A program made the position numbers and the translations under genes. DNA of 49,493 nt from assembly GCA_024276305.1 (NCBI GenBank), contig JAJRXK010000028.1:1-49493 (forward strand), read 5' to 3'. Below, piece by piece: positions 3,763 to 42,382 of this stretch; within the stretch, counting starts at the first letter, position 1; the number at the start of each line of letters is the position of its first letter. Source of the DNA: Candidatus Krumholzibacteriota bacterium (lineage in GTDB: Bacteria > Krumholzibacteriota > Krumholzibacteriia > JAJRXK01). Below the pieces are notes generated by a model. The model did not search any database, was not told the DNA's origin, and worked only from the letters and a program-made list of their open reading frames with translations.

Positions 3763-3945
3763 GGCTCGATGGCCTCCAATCGCCGGCAAGTGCAGCTTTG
3801 GAAGATCACAGGATAGCAGAGGCGACGCCCTGCGATCACAACATCTTATGTGGACGTGTCGATGATACGGACCCTAACTTCTCTTGGCCCGGGCCCCAAC
3901 GCAAGGCCCGACATGGCACGATTCAGCCCGACAGAGGGAGTACCC

Positions 3946-5130: not shown

Positions 5131-5133
5131 TCG

Positions 5134-5451: not shown

Positions 5452-5454
5452 GCC

Positions 5455-7570: not shown

Positions 7571-7963
7571 GTGGCCATCCACTGGACCATCGACGAAGAC
7601 CAGGGCCTCTTTGTAGAGGTCTGGGAAGGTCTGGTCACCGCCTGTGATGCCTGCGGAGCGGTCGACAAGGCCGTCCTGGACCCGCGCTACCGAGCGGGAA
7701 TGCGCGGCCTCCTCGACATGCGCCGCGCCCAGATCGGCTTCGGTACGGCCGGGGTGGAACAGATCTTCCGAAAGAAGCGCCAGTACGCGGACCTGCACGT
7801 GGGCTGGCGCTGGGCCTTGGTCGCCACCACGACCTCTCAGATCGCAACCTGCGCCCTCTACGTCAGCATCACGGACCACACCCCCATCGAGATTTCGGCC
7901 TTCGGAGACCTCGATACTGCGCTGCACTGGCTGGGGGCCTACGCCCCAGCCCAGCTCCGCTGA
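7571..7963 (+). CDS. SpoIIAA/STAS-like small protein, function unknown
   Basis: A 130-residue soluble protein starting at GTG after ACGGAGG. It alternates short beta segments and helices: IHWTIDEDQGLFVEVWEGLV, a helix through DACGAVDKAVLD, then MRGLLDMRRAQIGF, the central strand and helix, then RWALVATTTSQIATCALYV and a final helix DLDTALHWLG. The order and the closing DxxxALxWL resemble the SpoIIAA-like fold used by many single-domain bacterial proteins of unknown role. No phosphorylatable Ser in a DSxG motif is seen, so an anti-anti-sigma function is doubtful. It follows the hemerythrin gene closely. A protein of similar layout occurs at 48970. Confidence 0.6.
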   Translation: MAIHWTIDEDQGLFVEVWEGLVTACDACGAVDKAVLDPRYRAGMRGLLDMRRAQIGFGTAGVEQIFRKKRQYADLHVGWRWALVATTTSQIATCALYVSITDHTPIEISAFGDLDTALHWLGAYAPAQLR

Positions 7964-8097
7964 GGATGCGCGACGACCGTCCCCGAGCGAGACCCTGGAT
8001 TTTTTCCTGTCGGCCAGCCCGGTGTGGGCTTAGCTTTGCTGTCCGCGCGTGCTCCGAGAGAGCCCTGAACATTCCTGAAGACGACGCACAAGAGATC

Positions 8098-9366: not shown

Positions 9367-9393
9367 GTCCTCCCCGCAGATTCGGAAGGTCCC

Positions 9394-9762
9394 ATGGCAC
9401 GCAACGTTCTCGGCGGTCCGCTACAACCCTGCTCCACCGATCCTCTCACCGGATTCTTCCGGGATGGATCCTGCCGCACCGGTTCGGGTGATGTCGGAAT
9501 GCACGCGGTCTGCGTCATGGCCACCGAGGAGTTCTTGGACTTCTCGGCCCGGCACGGAAATGACCTGACCACCCCCCGGCCCGAAGCCGGATTCCCAGGG
9601 GTCCAGCCCGGCCAGCGTTGGTGTCTCTGTGTCTCCCGGTGGCAGGAAGCCCTCGAGGCGGGACTTGCCCCCCCAGTGATTCTGGAAGCCACGAACATGA
9701 GCGCACTGGAGTGGGTGAGCCTCTCCGATCTGCAGGCTCACTCGACCGACGCCATGCGCTGA
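9394..9762 (+). CDS. DUF2237 family protein
   Basis: A 122-residue protein matching the DUF2237 family along its whole length, with NVLGGPLQPCSTDPLTGFFR at the start, then DVGMHAVCVMATEEFL and PGQRWCLCVSRWQEAL. The conserved Cys residues (CSTDP, CRTG, CVMA, WCLC) suggest a metal or redox role, but the family has no established function. A ribosome site GGAAGG lies before the ATG. The gene follows the helicase by 27 bases and precedes the carboxylesterase by 18, so the three may be co-transcribed. Confidence 0.88.
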   Translation: MARNVLGGPLQPCSTDPLTGFFRDGSCRTGSGDVGMHAVCVMATEEFLDFSARHGNDLTTPRPEAGFPGVQPGQRWCLCVSRWQEALEAGLAPPVILEATNMSALEWVSLSDLQAHSTDAMR

Positions 9763-9780
9763 CCCCGACTCCATGATCCC

Positions 9781-10455
9781 ATGACCGAAGAACTCCTTCC
9801 CCGAGTCGAGAGCGGCGCCGACCCTGCCCGCTGCACCGTGATCTGGCTGCACGGTCTGGGAGCCGATGGGCACGACTTCGAATCCATCGTCCCGGAGTTG
9901 GGCCTCGATCCCTCCATCGGCGTGCGCTTCCTCTTTCCTCACGCACCGCAGATCCCAGTCACCCTCAACGGCGGAATGCGGATGCGGGCGTGGTACGACA
10001 TCGCAGAACTCGATCTGCGACGGCATCATGACGAGGCCGGTATTCTGCGCTCCTGCGCTCGGATCGAAGCCCTCATCGACCACGAGATCTCACGGGGAGT
10101 GCCGACGGAAAGAATCGTATTGGCCGGCTTTTCGCAGGGAGGAGCCATTGCTCTCCACTTGGGCCTGCGCTTCGATCGAAAGCTGGCGGGGATCGTCGCC
10201 CTCTCCACCTACCTCGTCCGCGCGGAGAGTCTCGACCAGGAACTCTCTCCGGCGAACCGGAAGACTCCCATCTTCCAGGCCCACGGAGCCCACGATCCCA
10301 TGGTGCCCCTCGACCGAGGTCAAGAAGCTCGGGACCGCCTCCTGGCCCTGGGCTACCCCCTCTTCTGGCAGCGCTATCCCATGCAACACGAAGTCTGCTG
10401 GGAAGAGATCCGGGCCCTGGGAGATTGGTTGAAGACCCAACTGACCGCGACCTAG
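9781..10455 (+). CDS. Carboxylesterase/lysophospholipase-like alpha/beta hydrolase
   Basis: A 224-residue serine hydrolase of the small phospholipase/carboxylesterase family, cytoplasmic with no signal peptide. The oxyanion-region HGLGADGHDF comes near residue 24, the nucleophile Ser is in GFSQGGA (about S122), the acid in HGAHDPMVP (about D172), and His in YPMQHEVCWEE near the end. MRAWYDIAELD is also a family mark. The family hydrolyses short-chain acyl esters. The gene is convergent with the HD hydrolase: the tetranucleotide CTAG at 10452-10455 supplies the TAG stop for both strands. Confidence 0.92.
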   Translation: MTEELLPRVESGADPARCTVIWLHGLGADGHDFESIVPELGLDPSIGVRFLFPHAPQIPVTLNGGMRMRAWYDIAELDLRRHHDEAGILRSCARIEALIDHEISRGVPTERIVLAGFSQGGAIALHLGLRFDRKLAGIVALSTYLVRAESLDQELSPANRKTPIFQAHGAHDPMVPLDRGQEARDRLLALGYPLFWQRYPMQHEVCWEEIRALGDWLKTQLTAT

Positions 10456-25532: not shown

Positions 25533-26618
25533 TCACACCCGCTGGGGAGTGCCCAATCCTCCCTTCAATGCTGCGGACCTTCGCAAGAGCACTCCCGCAA
25601 TGTCCTTGAGCGAAACCAGGTCTTCGGCCGCTCCGATCCGGTGCGCGGATCCAGGCATGCCCCACACCACACTTGTAGCCTCATCCTGAGCAATGGTGCG
25701 GGCGCCGCACTCACGCAGTTCTTTCAGTCCTTCCGCGCCATCCGCGCCCATGCCCGTCAACAAGGCCGCCACGGCCATCGATCCGGCCGCTTCGGCGACG
25801 GACCGAAACATGACATCGACCGAGGGCCGATGACGGTTCACGGCTTCCGAGGAATCGAGACGACATCGATAGCCCTCTCTTCCCCGAATGATGGTCAGAT
25901 GACGGTCACCAGGCGCCACGTAGGCGTGTCCTTCCATCAGGAGTTGACCATCTGTCGCTTCGCACACATGGATTGCACACTCGCGGTCGAGTCGCTCTGC
26001 AAAGCGAGCACTGAAGAGAACCGGGATGTGCTGGGTGACCACCGCAGCCGGTGCATCGCAGGGGAATTCTCTCAAAACGTCGCAGATCGCTTCGGTCCCT
26101 CCAGTCGACGCCCCGATGGCAATGATCCGATCCGAGGGACAAGCGGCGAGAATCGCATCCGTAGACACCCGCGTAGCCCCCCGATTCCGGCGCCGGGAGA
26201 ACACATTCACCGCTGCCGCCGCAGCAAGTTTCTCCAGAATCTCTTCGCGGTAGTCCTCGATGGCTTGGGCCGACTCCACCCGGGGCTTGGCCACGAAGTC
26301 GATCGCCCCCAGACTCAACGCGTCGAGGGTCACGTCGGCTCCCCGTTGGGTGAGCGAAGACACCATCACCACTGGCATCGGATGAAGTCGCATGAGATTC
26401 TTGAGGAACACCAGGCCATTCATTCGAGGCATTTCCACATCGAGAGTGAGGACATCCGGATGCGACACCTTGATCTTGTCCCGGGCCTCATAGGGATCTG
26501 CGGCCGCGCCTACAACACAGAACCGATTGTCGGAATCGATGATCGCCGTCAGCACCGCTCGAACGAGGGCCGAGTCGTCGACTACTAGCACTCTGATCTG
26601 TGAGTTTCCAACGGCCAC
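25533..26618 (-). CDS. cheB: Chemotaxis response regulator/protein-glutamate methylesterase CheB
   Basis: A 361-residue CheB that removes methyl groups from (and deamidates) chemoreceptors. The receiver domain (about 8-125) has LVVDDSALVR, phospho-Asp in LTLDVEMPRMNG, and the conserved Lys in VAKPRVE. The esterase domain (about 165-350) has Ser in GASTGGTEA, His in TQHIPVLFS, and Asp in LLTGMGADGAEGL. I place the start at the second of two nearby GTG codons (26618) because AGGAG lies five bases before it; the first would leave no room for the ribosome site. It begins ten bases after the cheD stop in the chemotaxis operon. Confidence 0.95.
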   Translation of the reverse strand: MAVGNSQIRVLVVDDSALVRAVLTAIIDSDNRFCVVGAAADPYEARDKIKVSHPDVLTLDVEMPRMNGLVFLKNLMRLHPMPVVMVSSLTQRGADVTLDALSLGAIDFVAKPRVESAQAIEDYREEILEKLAAAAAVNVFSRRRNRGATRVSTDAILAACPSDRIIAIGASTGGTEAICDVLREFPCDAPAAVVTQHIPVLFSARFAERLDRECAIHVCEATDGQLLMEGHAYVAPGDRHLTIIRGREGYRCRLDSSEAVNRHRPSVDVMFRSVAEAAGSMAVAALLTGMGADGAEGLKELRECGARTIAQDEATSVVWGMPGSAHRIGAAEDLVSLKDIAGVLLRRSAALKGGLGTPQRV

Positions 26619-26627
26619 CGGCACTCC

Positions 26628-27284
26628 TCAGAACAACTCGATCGATCCGCCAACCTCACGCTGAGCGATTTCCGATCGGTAGACCCTCTCCTGCTCCACT
26701 GCCTCCGCGCTCTCATCCAGTCTCAACCGGCGGACCCTGACCCATCCCGTCACCGTGTCGTAGTAGACTTTCCTCGGAGATCGGCCGCCTAGATCCTCTG
26801 CTACGATGCTCACGCTCTCCGCCGACAAATAATCTCGCACGAACTCGATGTTCCGGTCTCCAACGTCGAGACGGCTGTTCAAGACCCGCGCTCCCCCGAA
26901 CACCTTGGCGGTGAGCCGCTTCCGGTCAGCGCCTCGCTTCAAGAGCTCGTTGATGAGGTTCTCCATGGCGTGGGTTCCAAATCGGGTTTCTGCCGACAAC
27001 TTCGAGTTGTGGGCCGCAGTCGAGGTCATCGTGGGCAGCATGAAGTGATTCATTCCCGCAATTCCTCGATGATCATCACGGATGCAAGCGGCGACGCAGG
27101 ATCCCAGAACCGTGACCAACAGATCTCCGCGAGCACTCACCGCAAACTCTCCGGGCTTGATGCGAGCCGCATAGCAATCGTGCAACCGATCGCGTACCAG
27201 CGTGAGGTGTTCGAAACCTGGTATTGGCTCTCGCTCCTGCCTCCCCAACTCCGTCCGATCCGCAGTGTGATTGCCGGTACTCAT
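26628..27284 (-). CDS. cheD: Chemoreceptor glutamine deamidase CheD
   Basis: A 218-residue protein, somewhat longer than the usual about 160 because of an N-terminal extension of about 40 residues. The catalytic Cys is in LVTVLGSCVAACI (C63), the His in GMNHFMLP (H80), and the Thr-containing stretch KVFGGARV completes the family fold. CheD deamidates specific Gln residues on MCPs and can bind CheC. The start overlaps the cheR stop as ATGA. No CheC is present in the window, so a plain deamidase role is most likely. Confidence 0.94.
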   Translation of the reverse strand: MSTGNHTADRTELGRQEREPIPGFEHLTLVRDRLHDCYAARIKPGEFAVSARGDLLVTVLGSCVAACIRDDHRGIAGMNHFMLPTMTSTAAHNSKLSAETRFGTHAMENLINELLKRGADRKRLTAKVFGGARVLNSRLDVGDRNIEFVRDYLSAESVSIVAEDLGGRSPRKVYYDTVTGWVRVRRLRLDESAEAVEQERVYRSEIAQREVGGSIELF

Positions 27285-28138
27285 CGGATCCGCCGATACA
27301 TGCTGCGGCCCATGAATTCGAATCGATCCGAGATGTTGTGCAGGCTCTCCGAATGGCCCACGAAGAGCCACCCACCCGGTCGCATTCTCTCAGCCATGCG
27401 ATCAAAGAGCCTTCGCTGCGTGATAACGTCGAAATAGATGACGACGTTCCTGCAGAACACAGCGTCGAAGGATCGTTTCATCGGCCATTCGTCCATGAGG
27501 TTCAGGGTTCGAAACCGCACGAGCGCACGCAGGCCTTGCTTCACTCGACAACGGCGTGCCGCCAATGGCTCGAAGTACTTCGTCCGCCATCGGAGTGGTA
27601 GGGGATCCAATGCTTCTTCGGGGTACTCTGCGCGTTCGCCCGCGCGCACCATCGTCGCATCCAGATCACTGGCGAGAATCAGCAGGTCCCAGCGATCAAG
27701 ATCCTGACCCATGGTCTCAGCGACGGTCATGGCGATCGAATAGGGCTCTTCCCCGGAGCTGCACCCCGCAGACCAGATGCGGACTCGCCGGCCCTCGGTA
27801 TTCTGGTCGAGGATCTGGGGCAAGACTTCCTGCTCCAGAGCCTCGAAGTGATGTTGCTCCCGAAGGAACTGCGTCACATTGGTGGTCAGAGCGTGGAGCA
27901 GCTCTCTCCGACACCTCTCGTCCCCGCCGCGGAGCATCTCGAAATACTCCGCCGTGGACCCAACCCCGCAGGCTCGCATGGCCCGAATCAGTCGGTTGCG
28001 CACCATGTCGCGCTTCTCTTCTTTCAGACGAATGCCAGCACGATTGCGTACGTAGTGCCGAATCCACTCGAATTCCGCATCGCCGAGAATCGACTCGTCG
28101 CGGGATTGCGAGGCTGGACTCGCTGAAGGCGCAAGCAT
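27281..28138 (-). CDS. cheR: Chemotaxis protein methyltransferase CheR
   Basis: A 285-residue SAM-dependent methyltransferase that methylates Glu residues on MCPs. The N-terminal helical domain (FEWIRHYVRNRAGIRL; FEMLRGG) precedes the catalytic domain with NVTQFLREQHHFEAL, the SAM loop RIWSAGCSSGEEPYSIAM, and FDAVFCRNVVIYFD. RPGGWLFVGHSESL near the end is also typical. I choose the start MLAPSASPA, which has AGGAAGGA at the correct distance, rather than either of two upstream in-frame starts. It follows the MCP gene by 23 bases and overlaps cheD. The MCP's C-terminal EWAEF pentapeptide may dock to its beta-subdomain. Confidence 0.95.
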   Translation of the reverse strand: MLAPSASPASQSRDESILGDAEFEWIRHYVRNRAGIRLKEEKRDMVRNRLIRAMRACGVGSTAEYFEMLRGGDERCRRELLHALTTNVTQFLREQHHFEALEQEVLPQILDQNTEGRRVRIWSAGCSSGEEPYSIAMTVAETMGQDLDRWDLLILASDLDATMVRAGERAEYPEEALDPLPLRWRTKYFEPLAARRCRVKQGLRALVRFRTLNLMDEWPMKRSFDAVFCRNVVIYFDVITQRRLFDRMAERMRPGGWLFVGHSESLHNISDRFEFMGRSMYRRIR

Positions 28139-28161
28139 GGGATTCCTTCCTGGCATCGGTC

Positions 28162-29409
28162 TCAGAACTCGGCCCATTCGTCTTCACCCTCGCCCGAACT
28201 CACCGTGGCGTAGTCCGAAACCAGATCGGCGACGTCGTCCGCATCTCCGCTCTTCACCGTGGGCCTGGACTTCGGGGCCTCCTTCGTCTGCGTCCTGGCG
28301 TGCGTGCGGAAAAAGGCCATCAGCTCGGCAAGTCCACTCGCCTGCTCGTCCATCGATGCAGCCGCGGCCGTGGCTTCCTCCACCATGGCCGCATTCTGCT
28401 GGGTGATTCCGTCGATCTGGGCTACCGCCTTGGCCACTTCGTCGATTCCCTGAGCTTGCTCTCGGCTCGCGATGGCGATTTCTCCAACGATGGACGTCAC
28501 CTGTTGCACTCCGCGAACGATCTCCTGCAAGGTCTCACCCGACCGATCCACGAGGTCGCTTCCTTGCTGAACTCGAGCCACGCTATCGCTTATGAGAGCC
28601 TTGATCTCCTTGGCAGCCGTGGCGCTCCGCTGGGCGAGATTGCGGACCTCTCCTGCAACCACTGCGAAACCGCGGCCCTGATCTCCAGCCCTTGCTGCTT
28701 CGACCGCCGCGTTGAGGGCCAGGAGATTGGTCTGAAACGAGATCTCATCGATGACACTGATGATTTCGGAGATCTGCCGACTGCTCTCATTGATGGCCGT
28801 CATTGCCATCACCGCCTCCGCAACGACTTCCCCGCCCTTCTCAGCTACATCACTGGCTTCGACGGACAACTCGCTTGCCCTCGCCGCATTCGCCGCCGTT
28901 TGCTTGACCGCCGTCGTGAACTCCTCGAGACTACTGCTCGTCTCCTCCAGAGACGATGCCTGCTCTTCCGTTCGATGGCTCAACTCGCCGTTCCCAATGG
29001 CGATCTCCGAGGCCGAAGACTTGATCGAAGCGGCAGCGACACCGATGCGTCCGACCATCTCGGACAGGTTCGTGATCGACGAATTGATCGCCGACTTCAG
29101 CTCGCCGAAGACCCCGGAATAATCCGTCTTCACCGTCTCGGTCAGATTCCCCTTCGCCATCTCTTCGGCCACTTTCGTGACGTCCTGGGTGGCATTGAGC
29201 ACGATGTCCAAGAGCTCATTGATGGATTGCGCCAAGCTGCTCAGGAATGTCCCTTCCGAGTCAATTGTGATTCGACTACGAAGGTCACCACTACTCGCAC
29301 TCTTGACCAAGTCGTTGATGGCCTCTTCTGCTCGCACTTGTGCACTGATGTCGGACCATTCGTTGGTGTAACCGATCACCGTCCCGTCTTCGTCTTCGAT
29401 GAGAGACAC
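28162..29409 (-). CDS. MCP signalling half, downstream part of an interrupted receptor gene
   Basis: The C-terminal 415 residues of a methyl-accepting chemotaxis protein. It starts at a GTG only if translation reinitiates; the same frame continues from the upstream PAS part across a single TAG at 29422-29424. Contents: the end of a PAS domain ([15 protein letters not shown]), a HAMP-like helical section around SSGDLRSRI and AKGNLTETV, methylation helices ([18 protein letters not shown]), the kinase-control tip [20 protein letters not shown] with [18 protein letters not shown], and a flexible tail ending EWAEF, which fits the x-aromatic-x2-aromatic CheR/CheB docking pentapeptide. There are no membrane helices, so the receptor is cytoplasmic. 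Without read-through this half has no sensor. Confidence 0.88.
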
Positions 29410-29421
29410 CTTGAGATGGAA

Positions 29422-30090
29422 CTACAGGGGCCCAAGCTGAAGGGTGGTCTCGTAGGGAAAGATCGATCGATTCTTCAGAAGTCTTCTCTGATGATCTGGA
29501 TTCTGATGAAAGTCATCGATGCTCCGTCCCACCAGCGCGGATGGATCGAGGTCCGGATAGAACTTCCTGAGATCCCCAATGTGTTCGTTGAGTGTGTGCA
29601 CTGTCGCACGATTGACATAGGTGATGTGCAAGTCGTCGTCGACGATGATGATATTCGTCGTGACTCCATCCATCGCAGCCTGCAACTGCTGTACATGACA
29701 CTCCCGCACACGTTTCTCCGTCGCGTCGGCGATCTGGACGTGGAATCCCATCGCTGCGCCACGCTCCGTTCTCAACGGCGTGACCCGAAGATCCAGAATC
29801 CGGCCCTGACACTCCACATCCACCGACCAAGACCTCGAGGGCCCCATCTGTAGTTTCGAATCCAGCACCGGCCCCAGGGTCGACGTTTCCATCAGCTCCG
29901 CGAGCGACTGGTCTTCCGTCGGTCGAATGTCCGACGATTCCCCACTCAAGCGCCGAAGAAGTCTCCGTGCCTCCGCATTGGCGTAGACCGCGCGCATGGA
30001 CCGATCGAAATGGAGGATCGCGGTCGGAGAGCAGTCCAACGCGGTCTGGTTGCGTCGATGAACATCGAAGTGTCTCCCGAAAATCTTCAT
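29422..30090 (-). CDS. PAS-PAS sensor half, upstream part of the interrupted receptor gene
   Basis: About 222 residues that end at a TAG. They hold two PAS domains: the first around TALDCSPTAILHFDRSMRAV and YANAEARRLLRRL, the second around AAMDGVTTNIIIVDDDLHIT and YVNRATVHTL. The chain stops after YETTLQLGPL, just where the closing PAS strand should run on; the next codons in the same frame read [19 protein letters not shown], exactly the expected continuation. A Trp-type TGG to TAG change would explain the break. The start ATGAAGATT has AGGAG at ten bases, 17 bases after the cheW stop. No cofactor-binding residue can be named. It is either a pseudogene, a recoded gene, or a sequencing error. 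Confidence 0.82.
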   Translation of the reverse strand: MKIFGRHFDVHRRNQTALDCSPTAILHFDRSMRAVYANAEARRLLRRLSGESSDIRPTEDQSLAELMETSTLGPVLDSKLQMGPSRSWSVDVECQGRILDLRVTPLRTERGAAMGFHVQIADATEKRVRECHVQQLQAAMDGVTTNIIIVDDDLHITYVNRATVHTLNEHIGDLRKFYPDLDPSALVGRSIDDFHQNPDHQRRLLKNRSIFPYETTLQLGPL

Positions 30091-30107
30091 GGTACGCGCG
30101 CTCCTGA

Positions 30108-30680
30108 TCACATGTGGGGGGTCGCTACCGCGACGGAACTTTCAAACGTCCGATTCGTCTCCGAGGAAGATGGCTCCGCGAGTCCAGGCGTCTGAATGGA
30201 ATCGAGAAGCCGATCGACATCGAGCAGAATCAGAAGTCGATCATCGAGAGTTGCCAGACCCGTAACTGCGGACATCTCGAAACTCTCGGCGAAGCGAGGA
30301 GGGGGCCCGATTTGGTCTGGGGCCAGAGCGTAGACATCGGACACCGCATCGGCTACGACCCCAACTACCCTCTCTTTTTGATCACCGCCAACGACCTTCA
30401 GAACAATGACCACCGTCGTGGAATCGTAGTCCACCACCTCGATGCCGAAGCGAGACCTCAAGTCGATCACCGGGACAATGGTTCCCCGTAGATTCATCAC
30501 CCCCCGGACATAGTCCGGGGTATTCGGGAGCGGCGTTACCCTACTCCATCCTTTGATCTCCTGAACCCTCAGGATGCCGACCGCATATTCTTCGTCTGCG
30601 ATGACGAAGGCCAAGTATTGCTCCACATCCCTCTTCGAAGTGGAGTGGGCGGCTTCCGAGGTCATCCGGTCTACGCTCAT
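30108..30680 (-). CDS. cheW: Chemotaxis scaffold protein CheW
   Basis: A 190-residue CheW that links CheA to receptors. The core runs from YLAFVIADEEYAVGILRVQE through IKGWSRVTPLPNTPDYVRGV and MNLRGTIVPVIDLRSRFG to VVADAVSDVYALAPDQI. Both termini are longer than in E. coli CheW (about 20 residues at each end). The start has a perfect AGGAGG at six bases and lies ten bases after the cheA stop, fixing it over an upstream in-frame ATG that would overlap cheA. It is the only cheW in the window. Confidence 0.95.
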   Translation of the reverse strand: MSVDRMTSEAAHSTSKRDVEQYLAFVIADEEYAVGILRVQEIKGWSRVTPLPNTPDYVRGVMNLRGTIVPVIDLRSRFGIEVVDYDSTTVVIVLKVVGGDQKERVVGVVADAVSDVYALAPDQIGPPPRFAESFEMSAVTGLATLDDRLLILLDVDRLLDSIQTPGLAEPSSSETNRTFESSVAVATPHM

Positions 30681-30690
30681 CCGATCCCTC

Positions 30691-32754
30691 CTAGATTCCC
30701 GCATGAGCTGAGGCTGCGCAGCCGAGGTCAATCCTCGATTGCGACATCCGAAGCAGCTCGTTCACATCGAGAATCAACGCGACCATTCCATCTCCGAGGA
30801 TCGTCGCGCCCTCGATTCCCGGGATGTGAACGTAATTCGCTTCCAGGCTCTTGATGACCACCTGCTGTTGGGTCAGCAGCTCGTCTACGACCAGTCCCGT
30901 TTTCTCGCCGTCGTTTTCGATCACCACGAGCAATTGCCGTCGCTGGTCCTCGTCACGAACCGATGACCCCAGAACCCGATTCAGATGCAGAATCGGGATG
31001 TTCGATCCCTGGAGTCGGTAGACCTCCTGGGTCCCTGCGACGACCCGCATCCGCCGAGGATCGATCTGAAGGGTCTCGGACACGGAGACCAGCGGAAGCA
31101 CATAGATGTCATTTCCCACTCTGACCAGCTGTCCATCCAGGATGGCCAGGGTAAGAGGAAGCCGAATGGTGACCGTGGTCCCCACTCCCGCGGCAGTGCG
31201 AAGGGTCACCACGCCGCCGAGAGAGCTGATATTGCAGCGAACCACGTCCATGCCCACCCCCCGACCCGACACATCGCTGATCTGGTCGGAGGTCGACAGC
31301 CCGGCATGAAATACCAGGTCCGCGATCTGTCCGGGCGAAAGCTGATCTTCCGGACCCACGATGCCGCTCGACCTGGCCTTCTCCAGAATCCTCTCCAAGT
31401 CCAGGCCGCGACCATCATCACGGACTTCGATGACGACGTTGCCGCCTTGGTGGGAAGCGCTGATGGACAGGGTTCCTTGGCGTGGCTTTCCTGCGGCCAC
31501 CCGATCCTCGGGATCCTCGAATCCATGGTCGAGAGCGTTGCGCACGATGTGAACCAGAGGGTCGCCAATCTTCTCCAACACCGTCTTGTCGACTTCGGTA
31601 TTCTCCCCGGAGAACTGGAGTGCAACGGTCTTTCCCAACTTGGCGCTCGTGTCGTGGACGATTCTCGGAAGACGGTTGAAGGCGAAGGAGATCGGAAGCA
31701 TCCGAATTCGCATGACGCTGTCTTGGAGGGCTCGGGTGTGCTGTTCGAGCTCGGCCACTCCTGACCTCAGGTCGTCCACTCGATCCACGCTGAACTCCTC
31801 CACGATCTGACTGAGCATCGACTGCGTGATCACCAGTTCGCCCACCATATTCATCAGCACGTCGATCTTGTCGGTCCCCACCCGAATCGATGCGGCCCGT
31901 CGCGCCTCGGCCCGAGTCTCGCTGCGAGGCCCGTCGGAAAAAGATGGCTGAGCTTCGGGATGGGGTTCTCGGGTTCCTGGCCGGCCTCCGACCGTCCGGT
32001 CCTCGACCCGTTCATCGAGAGAGAGTTCGCAATCGCCTTCGACCCACTCGAAGGCCTCTTCCAGGGAACGGCGGTCTGCGGAGGTCGCGAGCTCCATGCT
32101 CCATCGCAGATAGCAACTCTCGGGGTCGAAGCGCGTCCACTCCGGGATGTGAGAGGTGTCGACCGTCAGATTCAATTCGCCGAGGCGCCGCAGCTCCTCG
32201 AAGATGAGGTGAGGGTCGTTGCCGGTCTGCAGAAGGTGCGCGTGGGGCGCGAATTCGATGCTCCATCGGCGAAGAGTCTCGGGCCCGGAGTCCGCAGAGC
32301 CGTGGTCATCCGATGGCTGGAATTCCTCTTCGAATTCCTGGTCGCCTCTGGATTCCACGCACTGGGTGACATGGAGGATCTTCTCCAAGTCGGCCCGCGC
32401 TTCTGCAGTGGAGATCGCGTCCAGCTCCACGTCATCTCGAAGAGACACCAGTTGAGTACGCAGGGCATCGACACTGCGCAACAGGACATTGGTCAACTCG
32501 GAGTCGGTCTGTCGACGGCCGTCACGCATTTCATCGAGAATGGCCTCGAGAAGGTGCGTAAAATCCGTCACCGACTGGAATCCGAAGGTTCCACTTCCGC
32601 CTTTGATCGAATGCGCGGCCCGGAAGATGTCCTGGATCGCATCGTCGGACGAAACTCCTCGACCCAAGTCGAGGAGCCCTTGCTCCATGGCATCCAGGTT
32701 CTCGAAGCTCTCCTCGAAGTAAGTGTCTCGGAACTGAGAGAGATCGATGGCCAT
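30691..32754 (-). CDS. cheA: Chemotaxis histidine kinase CheA
   Basis: A 687-residue kinase that phosphorylates CheY and CheB. P1: phospho-His H48 in AAHSIKGGSGTFGF. A linker of about 150 residues follows, with an additional acidic segment. The dimerisation helices begin near RVGTDKIDVLMNMVGELVIT; the ATP domain has the N box HIVRNALDHGFE, G1 VRDDGRGLDL, G2 GRGVGMDVV; and the C-terminal P5 domain is CheW-like (GQLVRVGNDIYVLPLVSVSE). A Ser/Asp/Arg-rich stretch near residues 250-290 separates P1-P2 from the core. It starts three bases after cheY. Confidence 0.96.
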   Translation of the reverse strand: MAIDLSQFRDTYFEESFENLDAMEQGLLDLGRGVSSDDAIQDIFRAAHSIKGGSGTFGFQSVTDFTHLLEAILDEMRDGRRQTDSELTNVLLRSVDALRTQLVSLRDDVELDAISTAEARADLEKILHVTQCVESRGDQEFEEEFQPSDDHGSADSGPETLRRWSIEFAPHAHLLQTGNDPHLIFEELRRLGELNLTVDTSHIPEWTRFDPESCYLRWSMELATSADRRSLEEAFEWVEGDCELSLDERVEDRTVGGRPGTREPHPEAQPSFSDGPRSETRAEARRAASIRVGTDKIDVLMNMVGELVITQSMLSQIVEEFSVDRVDDLRSGVAELEQHTRALQDSVMRIRMLPISFAFNRLPRIVHDTSAKLGKTVALQFSGENTEVDKTVLEKIGDPLVHIVRNALDHGFEDPEDRVAAGKPRQGTLSISASHQGGNVVIEVRDDGRGLDLERILEKARSSGIVGPEDQLSPGQIADLVFHAGLSTSDQISDVSGRGVGMDVVRCNISSLGGVVTLRTAAGVGTTVTIRLPLTLAILDGQLVRVGNDIYVLPLVSVSETLQIDPRRMRVVAGTQEVYRLQGSNIPILHLNRVLGSSVRDEDQRRQLLVVIENDGEKTGLVVDELLTQQQVVIKSLEANYVHIPGIEGATILGDGMVALILDVNELLRMSQSRIDLGCAASAHAGI

Positions 32755-32757
32755 GAC

Positions 32758-33120
32758 TCAGCCCAGTACTTTCTTGATCGTGGCCAACAGTCTCTCGGGA
32801 TCGAAGGGCTTGACCAGCCAACCCGTCGCTCCGGCCGCCTTCCCGGCGCCTTTGGCATCGCCCCCGGATTCCGTAGTGAGAACCAACATTGGAGTGAAGC
32901 GATACTCCTCGAGCTCGCGCAGCTCTCGAATCAGATCGAGGCCTCCCATCTTCGGCATGTTCATGTCCGTCAGGACGAGATCGAAATGTCGTTTCCGAGC
33001 TCGTTCCAGAGCTTCGACCCCGTCCTCAGCCTGAATCACCTCGTGTTCATCCTGCTCGAGGGTGATCCGGACCATGTCTCGGATGGAGCGGGAATCATCA
33101 ACGGTGAGAATCGCAGCCAA
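32758..33120 (-). CDS. cheY: Chemotaxis response regulator CheY
   Basis: A 120-residue single-domain receiver. The acidic pair D8-D9 is in LTVDDSRSIR, the phospho-Asp is D51 in LVLTDMNMPKMGG, the switch Thr is in MLVLTTESG, and the Lys is in GWLVKPFDPE. Phospho-CheY would bind the flagellar switch. It starts at TTG, six bases after GGAGGG, directly after the STAS gene, with a two-base gap. Flagellar genes are not in the window, so motility itself is inferred only from this operon. Confidence 0.94.
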   Translation of the reverse strand: MAAILTVDDSRSIRDMVRITLEQDEHEVIQAEDGVEALERARKRHFDLVLTDMNMPKMGGLDLIRELRELEEYRFTPMLVLTTESGGDAKGAGKAAGATGWLVKPFDPERLLATIKKVLG

Positions 33121-33122
33121 GG

Positions 33123-33500
33123 TCAGCCCTCCTCCGTCGAGGATTGCCGACCTGACGACGGATCCCTCGAACCGTCAGCGGCCAGGTTCATTCGCAGTAT
33201 GTTCAAGCCCAGCGACACCGCGATCCTGGTGGCCGCAGCACTGGAACCACGCCACCGGATCTGCACTCCCAGCTCCTCCCCTCGGCGAATGACGGCCTGC
33301 AGGAACTGAGCGCCGGCGGTATCCATCCTCCCGAGCTCGGTGACGTCCAGAGTGAAGGTCTCGTTCGGGAGCATTCGCTCATCGACTTGGTCTTTCAGCT
33401 CACGGACCTTCGCGATGGTCAGCGTAGCCGGAAGGTATAGGACTCGGTCCACGGTCGTTGCTCCCTCTTCCGCAATGCGCAATTCGTGAACCCAGGGCAC
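33123..33500 (-). CDS. STAS-domain protein in the chemotaxis operon
   Basis: A 125-residue STAS domain, the fold of anti-anti-sigma factors and MlaB-type regulators. The strands and helices run LYLPATLTIAKVRELKDQV, FTLDVTELGRMDTAGAQFLQ and IRRGEELGVQIRWRGSS. The phospho-acceptor position has Thr instead of Ser (MDTAG). STAS genes of this kind are common beside cheY-cheA in chemotaxis-like operons, but their job is not settled; adaptor or scaffold roles have been suggested. I take the GTG at 33500 as start (AGGA at seven bases); the frame stays open to 33665 but that part would overlap the ODP gene. Confidence 0.8.
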   Translation of the reverse strand: MPWVHELRIAEEGATTVDRVLYLPATLTIAKVRELKDQVDERMLPNETFTLDVTELGRMDTAGAQFLQAVIRRGEELGVQIRWRGSSAAATRIAVSLGLNILRMNLAADGSRDPSSGRQSSTEEG

Positions 33501-33606
33501 GGATCGTCCTGGACCCAGAGCTCTTTCGCTATCGGCGTCCGACCGCGATTCCTTTAGCGTCACGGAGTCGGAGCTGGCTGGGGATCGGCAGAATCGGGCG
33601 CGGAAG

Positions 33607-34386
33607 CTAGGGACCGGCAAGGATTTCCCCGACCGCCGTCGAATTCGGGTCGACCTCTTCGACATCCAGATTCGCTTGCCAATCCAGGAAGCGGCTTACA
33701 TCGAAACCCCGGAAGATGCTCCCATGCTGCGGGCAGATGATCTTCGGGTCGAGCAACCGCACTCGGTCGACCCAGCTTCGCAGAGCACGGTTCGAGGGCA
33801 TCCACCGCCGATGAAAACCTTCCATCAACACCACGTGGCGATCGAAGTCCTCCACGAAGAGAGCCTCGTCCGCCGACGGCAGCATCGCTGCGCCGATGTC
33901 TCCCGAGTAGAGGATAGATGCCTCAGGGTCGTAGAGGCTGAAGTTTCCAGAACTGTGGCAATAGTGAGCCGGGATTAGCTCGACGGTCGATCCATTGCCG
34001 ATGGCAATCGCTCCTCCCTCATCTGGAAGGGCAACGAAGTCGATGTGGTTTCCCATACAAAAGTGAGCGATGAACCCCGTCCACAGCCAAGAAGTGTACA
34101 CCTTCGCGTTCGGACACAAGTCCAACCACATGGAGAGGCTCGAAATCACGTCCGGATCCTGGTGGCTCGAAAAGATCCCCGTGACTTCGTCTGCCCTCAA
34201 GTGCCGAGCGAGTTCCGCCAGCACTTGCGGAAATACTTCGATCCCTTCGGGATCCAGAAGCAGCGCACCTCGTCCTCCGCGAATCACGTACTGGTTCGTG
34301 TCGATCACGTCGGGCCGCCGGCTCTCGTCCCTTCCGAGTACGATCCACTGGCAACAGGAACTCTCGTGGAGGACAATGCTCTTCAT
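33607..34386 (-). CDS. ODP-like di-iron metallo-beta-lactamase-fold protein
   Basis: A 259-residue protein with the MBL fold of flavodiiron proteins but with no flavodoxin domain. The metal motif is HQDPDV (H75, D77, D79), followed by a second His in PAHYCHSSGN, an Asp in LYSGDIGAAM, and a final His in CPQHGSIF. Flavodiiron enzymes have HxExDH at the first site; here Glu is Asp and the last His is missing. That modified site and the linkage to cheA-cheY fit the oxygen-binding di-iron proteins (ODPs) described as chemotaxis sensors for O2 and Fe(II) in Treponema. Its start overlaps the upstream small gene as ATGA, so their levels are coupled. I infer a sensor, not an O2 reductase. Confidence 0.78.
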   Translation of the reverse strand: MKSIVLHESSCCQWIVLGRDESRRPDVIDTNQYVIRGGRGALLLDPEGIEVFPQVLAELARHLRADEVTGIFSSHQDPDVISSLSMWLDLCPNAKVYTSWLWTGFIAHFCMGNHIDFVALPDEGGAIAIGNGSTVELIPAHYCHSSGNFSLYDPEASILYSGDIGAAMLPSADEALFVEDFDRHVVLMEGFHRRWMPSNRALRSWVDRVRLLDPKIICPQHGSIFRGFDVSRFLDWQANLDVEEVDPNSTAVGEILAGP

Positions 34387-34772
34387 GACGCCCCCACGGC
34401 CTCCAGGAGACGGTGAAGGCGACTCTCTCCATTGGCCGTCGATCGAGCGAGATCCTCGAGTACCGACTCCATGCTTCCGATCGAATTCTTCATGCTCTGA
34501 GCCAGATTCCCGAAGACCGGTGTGAAGTCCCCAGCCTGCGCCGATTCGATATTGATGCACTGGGCCAGGTAGTCAGAGGTCCGGCCAATGGAGTCCAGTT
34601 CCTCGAGTCCGCTGCGCACCTCCTTCAGCACTCGGATGGAGTCGTGGAGGCGATCCGAGACCCGCATGAGATTCGCCCCACACATCGCCTCCAACCGTTG
34701 CGAACTTGCCAGGACTGTCCGAGGGGGATCCGCCTCTTCGATCTCAACGCAGAGATTGCGGATGGAGCTCAC
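34383..34772 (-). CDS. Small helical protein with degenerate MCP-tip-like segment
   Basis: A 129-residue, all-helical protein with no membrane helix; start at GTG with a weak ribosome site. The middle segment YLAQCINIESAQAGD lines up ungapped with [15 protein letters not shown] from the MCP in the same operon, sharing L-A, I/V-E, A, A-G-D, and a following Phe and Leu-Ala. That segment in MCPs is the hairpin tip that contacts CheA and CheW. Flanking parts (RLHDSIRVLKEVRSGLEEL; MKNSIGSMESVLEDLARS) have coiled-coil character, so a short hairpin dimer is plausible. It is not a known family to me. It overlaps the ODP-like gene by four bases, and a six-base gap separates it from the similar upstream gene. 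Confidence 0.62.
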   Translation of the reverse strand: MSSIRNLCVEIEEADPPRTVLASSQRLEAMCGANLMRVSDRLHDSIRVLKEVRSGLEELDSIGRTSDYLAQCINIESAQAGDFTPVFGNLAQSMKNSIGSMESVLEDLARSTANGESRLHRLLEAVGAS

Positions 34773-34778
34773 TTTGCG

Positions 34779-35183
34779 TTAGCCCGTGGACTCCCGAGAC
34801 TTGATCTTGAGCGCTCCGGTTTCGCTCTGGAGGCGACGACGAATCACCAGCAGGGACCGGACGAGCTCATAGTGCAAACGGATCGAGTTGCTGGCATCGG
34901 CGGTATTCCGAGTCAGCGTTTGGCATCGCTCTTCGAGACTCCGAATCACGGTGCGGATTCTTCGGGGGAGGTCGGCCAGAATCTGAGCCAAGGTCAGCAG
35001 GGCCGCCCCTCGATCCTCGGGCAAACGCGCTGCGCGAGCCACTCCATTGCGCGCCAACAGCTCCATTTCCAGCATCGAGGAGTCGAGCCGGGCGGCGGTG
35101 GTCCGGATCTCAATACAAGCCCCGAAGACGAGATTCATCTCCCGGTTGTATCGAACCAAGCCATCGATGCTCGAAGATTCCAC
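34779..35183 (-). CDS. Small helical protein with second MCP-tip-like segment, first gene of chemotaxis operon
   Basis: A 134-residue helical, soluble protein and the first gene of the operon. The start is GTG at 35183 with weak GAGG upstream; an open frame continues 15 codons more. Segment ELLARNGVARAARLPEDRG can be laid on the MCP tip [23 protein letters not shown]-x-N, AAR and RG coincide. The helices before and after (DSSMLEMELLARNG; TVIRSLEERCQTLTRN; LHYELVRSLLVIRRRLQ) look like coiled coils. With the next gene it may form a two-chain hairpin. I know no named family. It is divergent from the DUF420 gene; the 144 bases between must carry the operon promoter. Confidence 0.58.
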   Translation of the reverse strand: MESSSIDGLVRYNREMNLVFGACIEIRTTAARLDSSMLEMELLARNGVARAARLPEDRGAALLTLAQILADLPRRIRTVIRSLEERCQTLTRNTADASNSIRLHYELVRSLLVIRRRLQSETGALKIKSRESTG

Positions 35184-35753: not shown

Positions 35754-35799
35754 TGGGCACGACGGAAGATTGACGAATCGCCGCACGTCGGACTAAGCT

Positions 35800-35968
35800 C
35801 TAGCAGGCTGCTGAAGAACTCCGGACCGAGCGCTGTGCGTGGATCGGGACCGAGGTCGAGGCGCGAGAACGTGGCCGTAGCCATAGCTACGGGTACGTTC
35901 TCGCAACGAAGAGATCGGTCCCGAGATGCGTACATCGCGACGGGAGGAGTTTTTCAGCAGCCTGCTAG
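35800..35968. repeat. 169-bp imperfect palindrome, MITE-like
   Basis: The arms begin with CTAGCAGGCTGCTGAAGAACTCC (shown in two parts: CTAGCAGGCTGC, TGAAGAACTCC) at 35800-35822, and the reverse complement with one difference lies at 35946-35968. Inside, CGGGACCGA (35845-35853) pairs with TCGGTCCCG (35915-35923), GCGAGAACGT (35863-35872) pairs with ACGTTCTCGC (35895-35904), and GTAGC/GCTAC close a four-base loop at the centre (35884). The whole unit is symmetric about one point. The end sequence resembles terminal repeats of known transposons that start with a CAGGCTGCTGAAAAA-type motif. It is too short to encode a transposase. It lies between the DUF420 gene and the response regulator. Confidence 0.82.
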
Positions 35969-36039
35969 ACGAAACCGAGGCTCCCGACCTTGCAACCAAG
36001 GCTCCCGATGGCGAGTGTTGCCATCGTGATCGACATATC

Positions 36040-37602: not shown

Positions 37603-37741
37603 TTCGGGTGACATCGTCCATCACTGTCGCCGGTGGCTCCCGAAATGGCGGCAACGACGTCGAAGTCCCCGGCTCACTCAACATTTGCTTGAGCCACTTC
37701 GGTCAACGCAAGGGGTGTGCCGAAGCCTTGAAATCATCGGA

Positions 37742-40700
37742 ATGCGGTTTCTTGCAATGACTTACACATACAGCCATCGAAACCGAACCCATTCTTTCGG
37801 CCCTCGGCGATCGAGGGTGTGCATTCGACTGGACAGTCTGTGGATCTTCCTCCTCTGCATCGCATCGGGGTGGATCCCCGCCGAAGCAGCGACGCTGCGA
37901 TTGAGCGCCGCTCCCGGACTCGAGGATTCCGACGTCGAATCGGCACTCCTGGTCTCTGACCACCTCCTTGCGGGCACCGCGCACGGGGTCTTCGCCTACG
38001 ACGGTGTGCGTTGGACCTCGCACACCTTCGCCGACACCGTTCGCTGGCTCGAAGTGGTCGACAACCGGGTCTTTGCCGGCGGGAGCCGCGGAGTGTGGGA
38101 GGCGTCGATCAATGATCTCTCCTTTCGTCTCTCGCCGGACAGCCCTCCCTTCCAACGTTGTTCCCTCAATGAAAGCGAGTCCGGGGGGGCGCTTCTTGCG
38201 GGCACCGACCAAGGCCTCTTCGCCTACGACGGAACGAGCTGGGTGCAACGACTCGATGGGCACCGCGTGCAGTCCCTCGCGCGGCATCCTCAGAAGGGAC
38301 TGCTCGTGGGGAGCTGGGGAGATGGACTCCTGGTCAGAGCCCCTTCCGGAGAAGAGGAATGGCTCGCCTGCCCCGGAGCCGGAGTCGTCGACACCCTGTC
38401 CGGGAACTACATCCACGACATCGCGGTCGACTCCGATGGAACGGTGCGCCTTGCCTGCAGTTGGGGATCCCTGGATCCGCGCCACATATGCTACGAGAAT
38501 GTCGTGACCCGAGGTCTCGTCAGCCGGAGAGACCCCCACACCTATCTCCGAGCCAGCCTCTGCACTTGGTCCGCGACGGGATGGAAGGTCACCTACCTCC
38601 TGCAGAACTTCACCCTGGTCCCCGACCCTCCCCTTCTCACTTTCGGCACCAAGTACTTGGGCACCCTCCGAGGATCTGATCGCGTCCAGTGGGTCCTCGG
38701 GATCTCCGTCGGCCGCCGCCTCCATCCCAGAGGGCTGGTGTCCTTCGACCTCGAGAGCCGCGAGCAGAATTGGTTCGTGGGGTCCCCCGCGAGACCCCTC
38801 TACATCTTTCCTCTCCAAACCGGAGGAGGCACCGAACTGGTCTCGGTCGAAGCCGCTCCCGATCACGGGACCGCCCTTGGCGACCAGAGCGATGACCGTA
38901 CCCGGATTCGTCGCGTGGACGGTCGCGGCCGTCACCGAGTTCTGAAAGAGTCCGATCACATGTTGTCCCCCGCGGACGCCAACTCCGAATTACTGCTCCG
39001 CAGAACGAGGGAGCGGGCTCTCGTCGTCGAAGCAGATGTGAATGCAGTCGACTCCGCTGCCAACGCGTTGTGGGAAATCGCCGTACCCCGTCAGGCGAAC
39101 AACGACTCGCTCGTGGTCACTTGCGTCGACAGCCTCCAGATCCCCCCTGCGTCCCTGCGCTACTTCACACCGCCAGACCGCTTCATCTGCGTACGGGTCG
39201 ACCGCATGTATGCCGACTTCATGATGGCGCGCAACGAGACTACCGGGGAAAGGTGGGACTTGGTCACCGATTCCCTCCGCGCCACTCTCGAAGGGATTCC
39301 CTTTCCCGCGATCACTCCGGTCCTCCTGCCTTCGGGACGGATGGGAGCGCTGGGCATCGATCGCAATGCCGTCTACTTGGTCGACCGGGGCGAGGTGCGT
39401 TCGTGGCCCCACTCCATCGACGTGAAGGGCGTCGTTCGCTGGTCCTGGATGAATCTCCTCCACCAAGACATGCCCCAACTCCTGATGAGGCGACGCGAGG
39501 ACCGAGGAGACGAGTTGTGGGGCTTTTCGACCGCGACTCCCTTGGGAAAACAGATCTTCCGAGATGCGACCTGGCTGGAACTGGCGTCCGACGACCTCTC
39601 TTCGCTGCGGCGATTGTCGAGATTCTCTCCGGAGCACGTGCCCACGCATCTGTACCTAGACCTCGCCCCCCTCTTCGATGATCACTATCAGTTGTCCGGC
39701 TGGATCTCCCGCTGGGTGCACAACGACGCTCTTCCCATCTACCATTCCGACGGAAGATTGCAACGATGGCTCCCCCTGCCTCCGTCCTTGGCCAAACAAG
39801 ATGACCTCCGCTGGATTGGCGGCGCGTGGCCTCTGGGGGCCAATGGAACTCCCACCCCCTGCCTCTTCCCCGCCAAGGACTATCCCTGGCCCATCTGGCG
39901 CTACGACAGCACTCTCGATCAGTGGATCGGACCCTACACCCTCGATGTCCCCTTCGAAGACTTCGGTTGCAATGCCATCACCGCTCTCGCCGCGAATACG
40001 AACTGGTGGGGCAGCGAGCAGGGACTGCGGGGAATGGCTTCGAGCTCAGACCTCAACGGCGGTCGCATCCGCGGGATGCGCGCCGAGGAAGACGATGTCC
40101 GAGACCTCGTCTGGGGAACGAATCGCGTGGAGTTGATCGAATCCGCGTCTCATTCGGAGTTCGAGAGGGCGTCGGACCTCCTGCACACCGGAACAGAACT
40201 CTTCGTCGCGGCCGGGAGCTCGCTGCTCCGCAGAATGGGTGAATCCTGGGAGGTTCTCAACGAGAGCCCGAGCGCCAGCCTCACCCGACGCCGCCTCCTC
40301 AATGTCGAAGGCCACCTCTGGTTTCAGGACTGGTCCAACCTGAACGGCTTTGTTCCCCCGAGACCCGCGGGCCGATCTGGGACTACGCCCCTCTCGGACT
40401 ATGGGGTGACCATGTTCGAGTTCGGCCACCGACGCGTGATCGGAATCCTGCGAATCTCCGACGACAACTATCTCATGGCCACCAGTTGGGGACTCCACGT
40501 CCTTCGGAGTGACTCCACTTCGGCGAACAACTACGTCCGCATTCCACTCCTCACCGCCCGCAGCGCCGCCACCGCCCTCATCCTCAACTCCGAGGGGTCC
40601 GCGATCGCGACCCTCGCCGACGGGCGGGTGTTCCGCATCGATCCCGAGACTCCCACCCGAGTCCACGAGTCAGCCTGGAGTCGGCCGCCCGCCCGGGCGG

Positions 40701-42382
40701 TCCAACAACTCATCGAAGATGGATCCACGATCTGGGCCCGGACCACCCACGGCATCGAAAGGTGGGGAAGCACCGACGGAGAGATTCTCCGGACTTGGCC
40801 GCTCCCCGATTCGCTGCGTACCATCGACTTCTGTTTGGCCGCTCAGGGCGGGGTATGGATCGGCACCAACGAAGGCCTGTGGCGCGTCCGGCCCCACGAA
40901 GAGCTGGCTCTGCCTGCGCGCCCACCAGGACTCCGCCGTGGGGAGGTGTCGCGGGTGGTGGAAATGGACGGATCGCGCCTCTACACCATCGTCGACCAGG
41001 AGCTCTGGGACCTTCCGATTCCTCGAAGCCAACCTTCTCTTCGCACCGTCGAGATGCCGACGGAGGTGGTGCTCGGACTCTGGGATCAGGGCCCCGTGCA
41101 ATCCGCCGGTTGGGCCATCACCCAATACAACGGGCAGAAGCCCCGAGTCACCCGCGCCCTGTTCCGCGCCGACGGAGCCACGGTGGTCCCGATCCCCGAC
41201 CACGGACGAGGGAATCACCGCTGGAAGGTCTGGGCCATCTCCGCCCGGGGCGAGCGTGTCGGCCAGGCCCTGCGCATTCATCGACGGGTCCACGGCCCCT
41301 CCCCCCTCGCAGCCGCAGCGGGAATCCTGGGGCCCGGATTCCTGGTGGGACTGTGGGCTCTGGATCTTCGACGAAGGGCCCGCTTCGCCCTGTGGATGGG
41401 CGCCAGCAGCATCGGAGTCTGGCTACTCCTCTACGAAGGTCTCCTCTTCGAACTGCCCTGGGGAAGCGCCATTGCCCTCCCGGCCGGAATCGCCGGTCTC
41501 GGAGTCGTCCTCCGGCGACGAGAATCCGCTCGGCACATCCCCGTCGAGGTCGCCGTCGCGCGCCTCGATGAACTCCTACGAGGCTTTCGTCACCGGGGGG
41601 GCGGGCTCAATCCCATCGACGAATTGCTCATCCATGTTCGCAACGTGACTCTCCTCCACGAAACCGAGGAGAATTTCGAGGGAACCATCGCCGGAATCTG
41701 CGAACGCGTTCTCGATGCCACCGAGGATCTCAGCACGCAGGGAAGCCACCTCATCGACGACGCCCAACTCGAACCCACCCTATTGCGTCGTTTCTTCCAC
41801 CGCCTCGAGGAACTTCGAACCCTCTGCCTCGAGCTGAGCGAAGACCGATGGCGACTGAGGGACTGGATGCAGCGCAGCGACGAGCATCTTGCCTGCGCCG
41901 AACTCTGCACTTCCTTCTTGCAGGCGGTGGAGTCCCTGACCCATCTCTTGGCTCGTCACCGTTACGTGGTCGTCGAGCGATTCTTCCCGGAATACTGCGC
42001 GACACTGCGACGCCGGTCGGAAGTGCAGTGCGACTTTCTGAATCGTTCTTCCCTCGAGCTTCTGCCCGCGAAGCAGGGAGAGGTTGCCGAGTTCCTCGAC
42101 AACCTCGTGGGCAACTCCCTCAAGGCCTGCACATCACCGGTACTCCGCCTCACCGTGGTCGATGACTCCGATGGTGTCCGCTTGCTCTTCGAGGACAACG
42201 GGCCCGGAGTGCCCGGCGAAAGCCTCCCGCGGATCTTCGACCGTTGCTACTCCGGCACAGGTTCCAGTGGATTCGGCCTCGCCCGCTGCGCAGAACTCGC
42301 CACCGGCTGGGGCGCGATCCTCCGTTATCTCCCCGCCCCCCATCTGGGAGGAGCGGGATTCGAGGTGAAGTGGAAAGGATGA
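37742..42382 (+). CDS. Giant propeller-type sensor histidine kinase
   Basis: About 1546 residues, with a signal-anchor/peptide (LWIFLLCIASGWIPAEA) and a periplasmic part of about 1130 residues that repeats motifs such as LLAGTAHGVFAYDG and LLAGTDQGLFAYDG, typical of 'two-component regulator propeller' blades. One to three membrane helices lie about 1185-1260. The cytoplasmic end has a helical region and a HATPase: N box EFLDNLVGNSLKA, G1 LFEDNGPGVP, G2 SSGFGLARCAEL. The usual H-box (HExxN/RP) is missing; the best candidate phospho-His is in GFRHRGGGLNPID. The start is uncertain: ATG at 37742, ATG at 37757, or a GTG at 37817 that would open right at the signal peptide. It probably acts with the regulator just upstream; the ligand is unknown. 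Confidence 0.85.
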   Translation: MRFLAMTYTYSHRNRTHSFGPRRSRVCIRLDSLWIFLLCIASGWIPAEAATLRLSAAPGLEDSDVESALLVSDHLLAGTAHGVFAYDGVRWTSHTFADTVRWLEVVDNRVFAGGSRGVWEASINDLSFRLSPDSPPFQRCSLNESESGGALLAGTDQGLFAYDGTSWVQRLDGHRVQSLARHPQKGLLVGSWGDGLLVRAPSGEEEWLACPGAGVVDTLSGNYIHDIAVDSDGTVRLACSWGSLDPRHICYENVVTRGLVSRRDPHTYLRASLCTWSATGWKVTYLLQNFTLVPDPPLLTFGTKYLGTLRGSDRVQWVLGISVGRRLHPRGLVSFDLESREQNWFVGSPARPLYIFPLQTGGGTELVSVEAAPDHGTALGDQSDDRTRIRRVDGRGRHRVLKESDHMLSPADANSELLLRRTRERALVVEADVNAVDSAANALWEIAVPRQANNDSLVVTCVDSLQIPPASLRYFTPPDRFICVRVDRMYADFMMARNETTGERWDLVTDSLRATLEGIPFPAITPVLLPSGRMGALGIDRNAVYLVDRGEVRSWPHSIDVKGVVRWSWMNLLHQDMPQLLMRRREDRGDELWGFSTATPLGKQIFRDATWLELASDDLSSLRRLSRFSPEHVPTHLYLDLAPLFDDHYQLSGWISRWVHNDALPIYHSDGRLQRWLPLPPSLAKQDDLRWIGGAWPLGANGTPTPCLFPAKDYPWPIWRYDSTLDQWIGPYTLDVPFEDFGCNAITALAANTNWWGSEQGLRGMASSSDLNGGRIRGMRAEEDDVRDLVWGTNRVELIESASHSEFERASDLLHTGTELFVAAGSSLLRRMGESWEVLNESPSASLTRRRLLNVEGHLWFQDWSNLNGFVPPRPAGRSGTTPLSDYGVTMFEFGHRRVIGILRISDDNYLMATSWGLHVLRSDSTSANNYVRIPLLTARSAATALILNSEGSAIATLADGRVFRIDPETPTRVHESAWSRPPARAVQQLIEDGSTIWARTTHGIERWGSTDGEILRTWPLPDSLRTIDFCLAAQGGVWIGTNEGLWRVRPHEELALPARPPGLRRGEVSRVVEMDGSRLYTIVDQELWDLPIPRSQPSLRTVEMPTEVVLGLWDQGPVQSAGWAITQYNGQKPRVTRALFRADGATVVPIPDHGRGNHRWKVWAISARGERVGQALRIHRRVHGPSPLAAAAGILGPGFLVGLWALDLRRRARFALWMGASSIGVWLLLYEGLLFELPWGSAIALPAGIAGLGVVLRRRESARHIPVEVAVARLDELLRGFRHRGGGLNPIDELLIHVRNVTLLHETEENFEGTIAGICERVLDATEDLSTQGSHLIDDAQLEPTLLRRFFHRLEELRTLCLELSEDRWRLRDWMQRSDEHLACAELCTSFLQAVESLTHLLARHRYVVVERFFPEYCATLRRRSEVQCDFLNRSSLELLPAKQGEVAEFLDNLVGNSLKACTSPVLRLTVVDDSDGVRLLFEDNGPGVPGESLPRIFDRCYSGTGSSGFGLARCAELATGWGAILRYLPAPHLGGAGFEVKWKG

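Follow-up and report, generated by a model that had tools for sequence, protein, structure and literature searches.

The window analysed here, positions 1 to 49,493 of contig JAJRXK010000028.1 from a Candidatus Krumholzibacteriota bacterium (assembly GCA_024276305.1), carries a chemotaxis operon that opens with two small genes, P0001 and P0002, followed directly by the gene for ODP, an oxygen-binding di-iron protein of metallo-beta-lactamase fold. Judged by sequence comparison, the two small proteins are almost certainly the split form of a soluble, single-chain partner of ODP that resembles the methyl-accepting chemotaxis proteins (MCPs) and bears two hairpin tips in tandem. They represent a split member of this single-chain family and not, as a sequence-only reading of the window had proposed, a novel system made up of two separate mini-tips; in all 23 relatives that we read, one protein carries both tips.

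P0001 (34779-35183, reverse strand) spans 134 codons from a GTG at 35183, or 149 from an ATG at 35228, and terminates at a TAA located at 34779-34781. P0002 (34383-34772, reverse strand, 129 codons) starts with a GTG six bases past this TAA. The two genes share one reading frame and are separated only by the TAA and two codons before the GTG, a layout that had been overlooked in the sequence-only reading. Its other observations here were accurate: two adjacent small open reading frames (ORFs) are present, both contain the motifs it quoted, and the stop of P0002 overlaps the start of ODP by four bases (ATGA). The codon-position GC content of P0001 and P0002 resembles that of the neighbouring genes.

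The assignment to a family rests on 22 ODP relatives (46-55% identity) from genome contigs labelled Pseudomonadota, Actinomycetota, Leptospiraceae and others, for which the gene before ODP was read. A single ORF of approximately 190-300 codons lies directly before ODP in 21 of the 21 genome loci with upstream sequence; it carries both tip motifs and ends near, or overlaps, the ODP start. Two plasmid records, from Pseudoalteromonas and Shewanella, add the same arrangement and bring the total to 23 relatives, the Pseudoalteromonas plasmid being annotated with a ‘chemotaxis protein’ beside an ‘MBL fold metallo-hydrolase’. The gene order with ODP is thus conserved in other genomes. All 23 relatives are uninterrupted and the in-frame TAA is seen only in the window member which, when read through, aligns with the two-tip family from end to end. 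Half profiles were built from 20 relatives, excluding the window, and 500 shuffles were scored for each protein. P0001 gave 28.5 bits against the N-half profile and 5.5 against the C-half profile, and P0002 gave 29.2 bits against the C-half and 4.2 against the N-half. The own-half scores were not reached by any shuffle (0/500 in each case) whereas the cross-half scores are at shuffle level, so the assignment of P0001 as the N-terminal half (tip 1) and P0002 as the C-terminal half (tip 2) is specific. The pair therefore shares the position directly before ODP and the two tips in order, each matching its own half, but lacks the single uninterrupted chain and is classed as a split variant. When P0002 was sought in 98 related genomes, it was found in its own genome only.

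Taken individually, P0001 and P0002 do not match MCPsignal in Pfam, their top matches being chance coiled-coil families, and the read-through protein gives no match to this domain either. Against a small MCP profile P0002 scored 12.6 bits, a value reached by none of 458 scored shuffles; P0001 scored only 2.9 bits, reached by 14 of 450. MCPsignal is matched by 20 of the 21 family members (best 1.4e-11), the sole exception being the window member, and the two-tip proteins of loci L013 and L027 pass the Pfam cut-off. A family profile also matched solved MCPs in the PDB, the best at 3.6e-16 (3g6b). In profile-profile comparisons with 13 MCPs, for which both halves were modelled without the window sequence, the N-half (98.5%, E = 1.8e-15) and the C-half (95.5%, E = 1.4e-8) each align in register with the MCP tip, and the conserved Glu of tip 2 falls on the MCP Glu. 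These comparisons show that both halves are related by common descent to the family as well as to MCP tips. The ungapped alignments of the two tips to the MCP of the same operon, from which this kinship had originally been proposed, are weak taken alone, and the profile search suggested as a check fails for either small protein; it is the family evidence that makes the resemblance real and supports the descent of both proteins from MCP hairpin tips.

The two tips differ in their conserved residues, which are numbered here after Asn381, Glu385 and Arg388 of Tsr. In the 13 MCPs from the loci read, Asn and Glu are present in 13/13 and Arg in 11/13. The 24 two-tip proteins, which fall into 15 groups below 50% identity, divide these residues between the tips. 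Tip 1 has the Asn in 24/24 proteins and the Arg in 21/24, with the Glu in 0/24 (15/15, 12/15 and 0/15 by group); tip 2 has the Glu in 24/24, the Asn in 17/24 and the Arg in 3/24 (15/15, 8/15 and 3/15 by group). The window halves obey this asymmetry. In the 24-sequence alignment the tip 1 motif of P0001, LLARNGVARAARLPEDRG (35007-35060, reverse strand), keeps the equivalents of Asn381 and Arg388 and lacks that of Glu385, and the tip 2 motif of P0002, YLAQCINIESAQAGD (34527-34571, reverse strand), keeps the Glu385 equivalent and lacks those of Asn381 and Arg388. Neither the window nor the family therefore has the combination of Asn, Glu and Arg in each hairpin that would be expected of an MCP.

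AlphaFold2 was run on the 266-residue read-through protein with 21 sequences. The model (pLDDT 84.5, pTM 0.75) contains helices at residues 2-52, 56-131, 153-214 and 218-263, which are arranged as two hairpins with their turns at the two tip motifs and a linker of low confidence (128-149) between them. The TAA corresponds to residue 135 and the GTG to residue 138, placing both within the linker.

A second receptor gene of the operon is also interrupted. The frame at 28162-30111 (reverse strand) encodes a PAS-PAS-HAMP-MCP receptor with one in-frame TAG at 29422-29424. This leaves an N-terminal part comprising a PAS domain and the start of a second (29422-30111), ending at the TAG, and a C-terminal part comprising the end of PAS 2, HAMP and MCPsignal (28162-29409), both on the reverse strand. 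On read-through, PAS_4 covers the whole second PAS domain (152-259, profile 6-109 of 110); otherwise the match ends at 209. The receptor is the only MCPsignal match in the genome, and its presence in the same operon contradicts the earlier suggestion that signals pass to CheA ‘with no classical MCP’. Both receptor genes are thus cut by in-frame stops, with a GTG within approximately five codons after each, and the remaining che genes are intact. A survey of the genome in two domain families, covering about 10,000 codons, found no internal stops in 44 ABC_tran and 47 Response_reg matches; with these 91 domain matches free of stops, such interruptions are not widespread in the assembly. Other same-frame neighbours, at 2251-6882 and 7648-10455, were considered and rejected, as they are ordinary adjacent genes (for example, a transhydrogenase set) and not interrupted ones.

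We propose that P0001 and P0002 together correspond to a single soluble, MCP-like protein that partners the neighbouring oxygen sensor, ODP. Each half would form an antiparallel helical hairpin, as in the window model, and the pair of hairpins would reproduce in one chain the four-helix tip for which an ordinary MCP needs two subunits. Binding of O2 or Fe(II) by ODP would alter its contact with the two-tip module, and this module would join receptor arrays with ordinary MCPs and shift the activity of CheA, so that ODP would do the sensing and the two-tip protein would connect it to the array. The analogy with ODP and TDE2496 of Treponema denticola makes such an effect on CheA plausible. In this genome, we infer that the TAA in the linker causes the hairpins to be made separately, translation restarting at the GTG two codons later; either the separate hairpins would then need to assemble into a heterodimer, or the function of the module is impaired. 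With identity and mechanism taken jointly, and allowing for an impaired module here, we consider this the best explanation and a reasonably likely one. For the mechanism as such the chances are about even, and for a functional split, in which the protein works as two parts, they are somewhat short of even, the remainder being divided among decay, sequence error and read-through.

Several results weigh against this proposal. There is no good Shine-Dalgarno sequence upstream of the P0002 GTG, and the relatives are too distant for selection on the split form to be measured. The stop in the MCP interrupts a folded PAS domain, a position that decay would explain no less well than a functional split would. 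The AlphaFold2 model of the intact relative L027, from Magnetospirillum (pLDDT 89.5, pTM 0.80), turns at tip 2 (residues 181-182); however, a continuous helix (39-119) passes through tip 1 without forming a hairpin, so the prediction of a hairpin at tip 1 holds for the window protein but not for L027. Foldseek searches of both models against the PDB returned generic four-helix bundles and weak MCP matches, none with E < 0.001; the single-chain four-helix bundles matched by the window model were likewise not significant.

The foremost alternative is that the two-tip partner and the MCP recently gained nonsense mutations, so that no working receptors remain and the operon has taken the first step in losing chemotactic input. 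We regard this as a serious possibility, if rather below an even chance. Two genes are interrupted in one operon and both encode receptors, the stop in the MCP cuts PAS 2 in mid-domain, and ODP sensors are absent from the 79 other genomes of the phylum that were searched. On the other hand, all other che genes are intact, each interrupted gene contains a single stop without a frameshift, the coding composition is kept on both sides of the stop, and in the two-tip gene the stop sits exactly in the linker. The asymmetry of the tips has been retained despite the split, which speaks against long decay and gives no date for the split.

It appears improbable that the stops stem from base errors in the metagenome-type assembly and that the cell has intact genes. 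The assembly consists of 119 contigs, one wrong base would suffice for each stop, and the two-tip relatives are without exception uninterrupted. Nevertheless, the stop rate in the surveyed domains is so low in this genome that two such errors would be unlikely to strike separate genes of the same operon. It is very improbable that both receptors are made partly full-length through recoding of TAA and TAG. Homology is gap-free across each stop, but the two stops differ, no known read-through context was recognised and a scan of the window, which did not extend to the rest of the genome, found no suppressor tRNA. The ODP and CheA genes of this operon also end with TAG, and recoding of this codon as a general feature was rejected on this ground. 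Finally, the idea that the tips are merely coiled-coil look-alikes, to which the low score of P0001 against the small MCP profile lends itself, is refuted at the family level by the family profiles and the conserved order and register, and is scarcely credible.

The sensor that the split two-tip protein would serve had been described from the window as ODP-like and proves to be a true ODP. The gene (33607-34386, reverse strand) encodes 259 residues that match Pfam ODP (PF19583) at 3.7e-72, over the cut-off and without a flavodiiron extension. The solved ODPs 6qrq and 6qnm match at 6e-68 and 7e-65 over nearly the full length, and in the alignment with them the sequence stretches of the di-iron site, with HxDxD, the AHY..H stretch, SGDIG and PQHG, are conserved. 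The protein is a putative di-iron, O2-binding ODP. The operon runs on the reverse strand from 35228 down to 25533, in the order P0001, P0002, ODP, a STAS-domain protein (33123-33665), a CheY-like receiver (32758-33120), CheA (30691-32754), a single-domain CheW (30108-30731), the PAS fragment, the MCP, CheR (27281-28177), CheD (26628-27371) and CheB (25533-26624). The genome contains flagellin, and the divergent neighbour of the operon in the window is DUF420.

Within the phylum, the 79 other genomes searched contain no ODP of the sensor type; the matches to the ODP model found there are proteins of approximately 400 residues, which are probably flavodiiron proteins. Elsewhere, the two-tip/ODP pair of Methylobacter comes after CheR-CheD-CheB within one che cluster, and in L022 and L028 che genes are also near the pair. 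In several genomes there are no che genes nearby, so the pair must there serve distant arrays. In L010 (4838-11118), a Rickettsiales-labelled metagenome-assembled genome, the pair immediately follows a FixG-type gene and precedes a short membrane-protein ORF and an apparent metal-transporting ATPase, with a cytochrome c-type gene adjoining; from their sequences, these surroundings look like a cbb3-type oxidase cluster. Together with DUF420 in the window, this context means that the locations of the pair fit oxygen. A different form of partner is seen in L004 (1429-2915), where ODP is followed downstream by an overlapping gene for a soluble mini-MCP of 243 residues, whose single tip is intact and contains all three tip residues. 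ODP-like genes of 41% identity are also found in two 94 kb records labelled as Acinetobacter phage MD-2021a (H10 and H11), which may be bacterial DNA; similar genes occur in Acinetobacter records of the plasmid set.

Two further features were observed in the window. Between DUF420 and a sigma-54 regulator lies an imperfect inverted repeat (35799-35969) with 55-nt arms 61 nt apart and 76% complementary, which has the appearance of a small element, either mobile or structural. The ORF at 37685-42382 (forward strand) encodes 1565 residues with HATPase_c at the end and a long N-terminal part that looks beta-propeller-like; by its sequence it is probably a large sensor kinase.

The two identical subunits of an ordinary receptor are not placed alike in the array: one lies at the trimer axis, whereas the other is peripheral and faces CheA/CheW, and ordinary mutations cannot separate the two roles (PMC4692393). 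The two-tip family appears to assign the conserved tip residues to different halves, giving a natural handle on subunit roles and, if the split form is functional, the halves could be swapped and mutated separately. It is a more doubtful idea that we have here a natural tip whose dimer subunits are permanently different (tip 1 with Asn/Arg and tip 2 with Glu), each perhaps fixed in one of the two subunit places of the trimer-of-dimers, and that in this genome two gene products, as an obligate heterodimer, read a di-iron sensor that binds oxygen.

An ODP partner with two tips, asymmetric tips or a split form was not found in the accessible literature, the coverage of which was limited. The closest known system is that of T. 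denticola, in which, according to PMC7666581 (citing Muok et al. 2019), ODP works with the soluble MCP homologue TDE2496, which modulates CheA. ODP has a soluble MCP-like partner in both cases, but here the partner of the family has two tandem tips and in this genome is split. ODP-MCP operons are stated to occur in two gene orders in the summary of Muok et al. 2019 seen in PMC7319448; the receptor gene likewise adjoins ODP here, and its upstream position may be one of the two orders. The double signalling domain receptor DosM of F9 systems (PMC9321776) also has two tandem signalling domains, mostly without a sensory domain. However, DosM is associated with CheW3 and with cytoplasmic arrays of two layers, whereas the CheW of the window is single-domain, and DosM is much longer than the two-tip protein. 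Soluble single-chain MCP signalling domains of unknown function also exist in nature, in Rhodospirillum centenum and others (PMC4692393), and similarly place two MCP signalling units on one soluble chain, although the link to ODP, the asymmetric tips and the split form are not described there. In the engineered single-chain receptor Tsr~Tsr, joined subunits signal and the length of the linker matters (Mowery et al. 2015, PMC4692393). Tsr~Tsr is man-made and full-length with identical tips; its counterpart in the window is natural, short, asymmetric and split once more.
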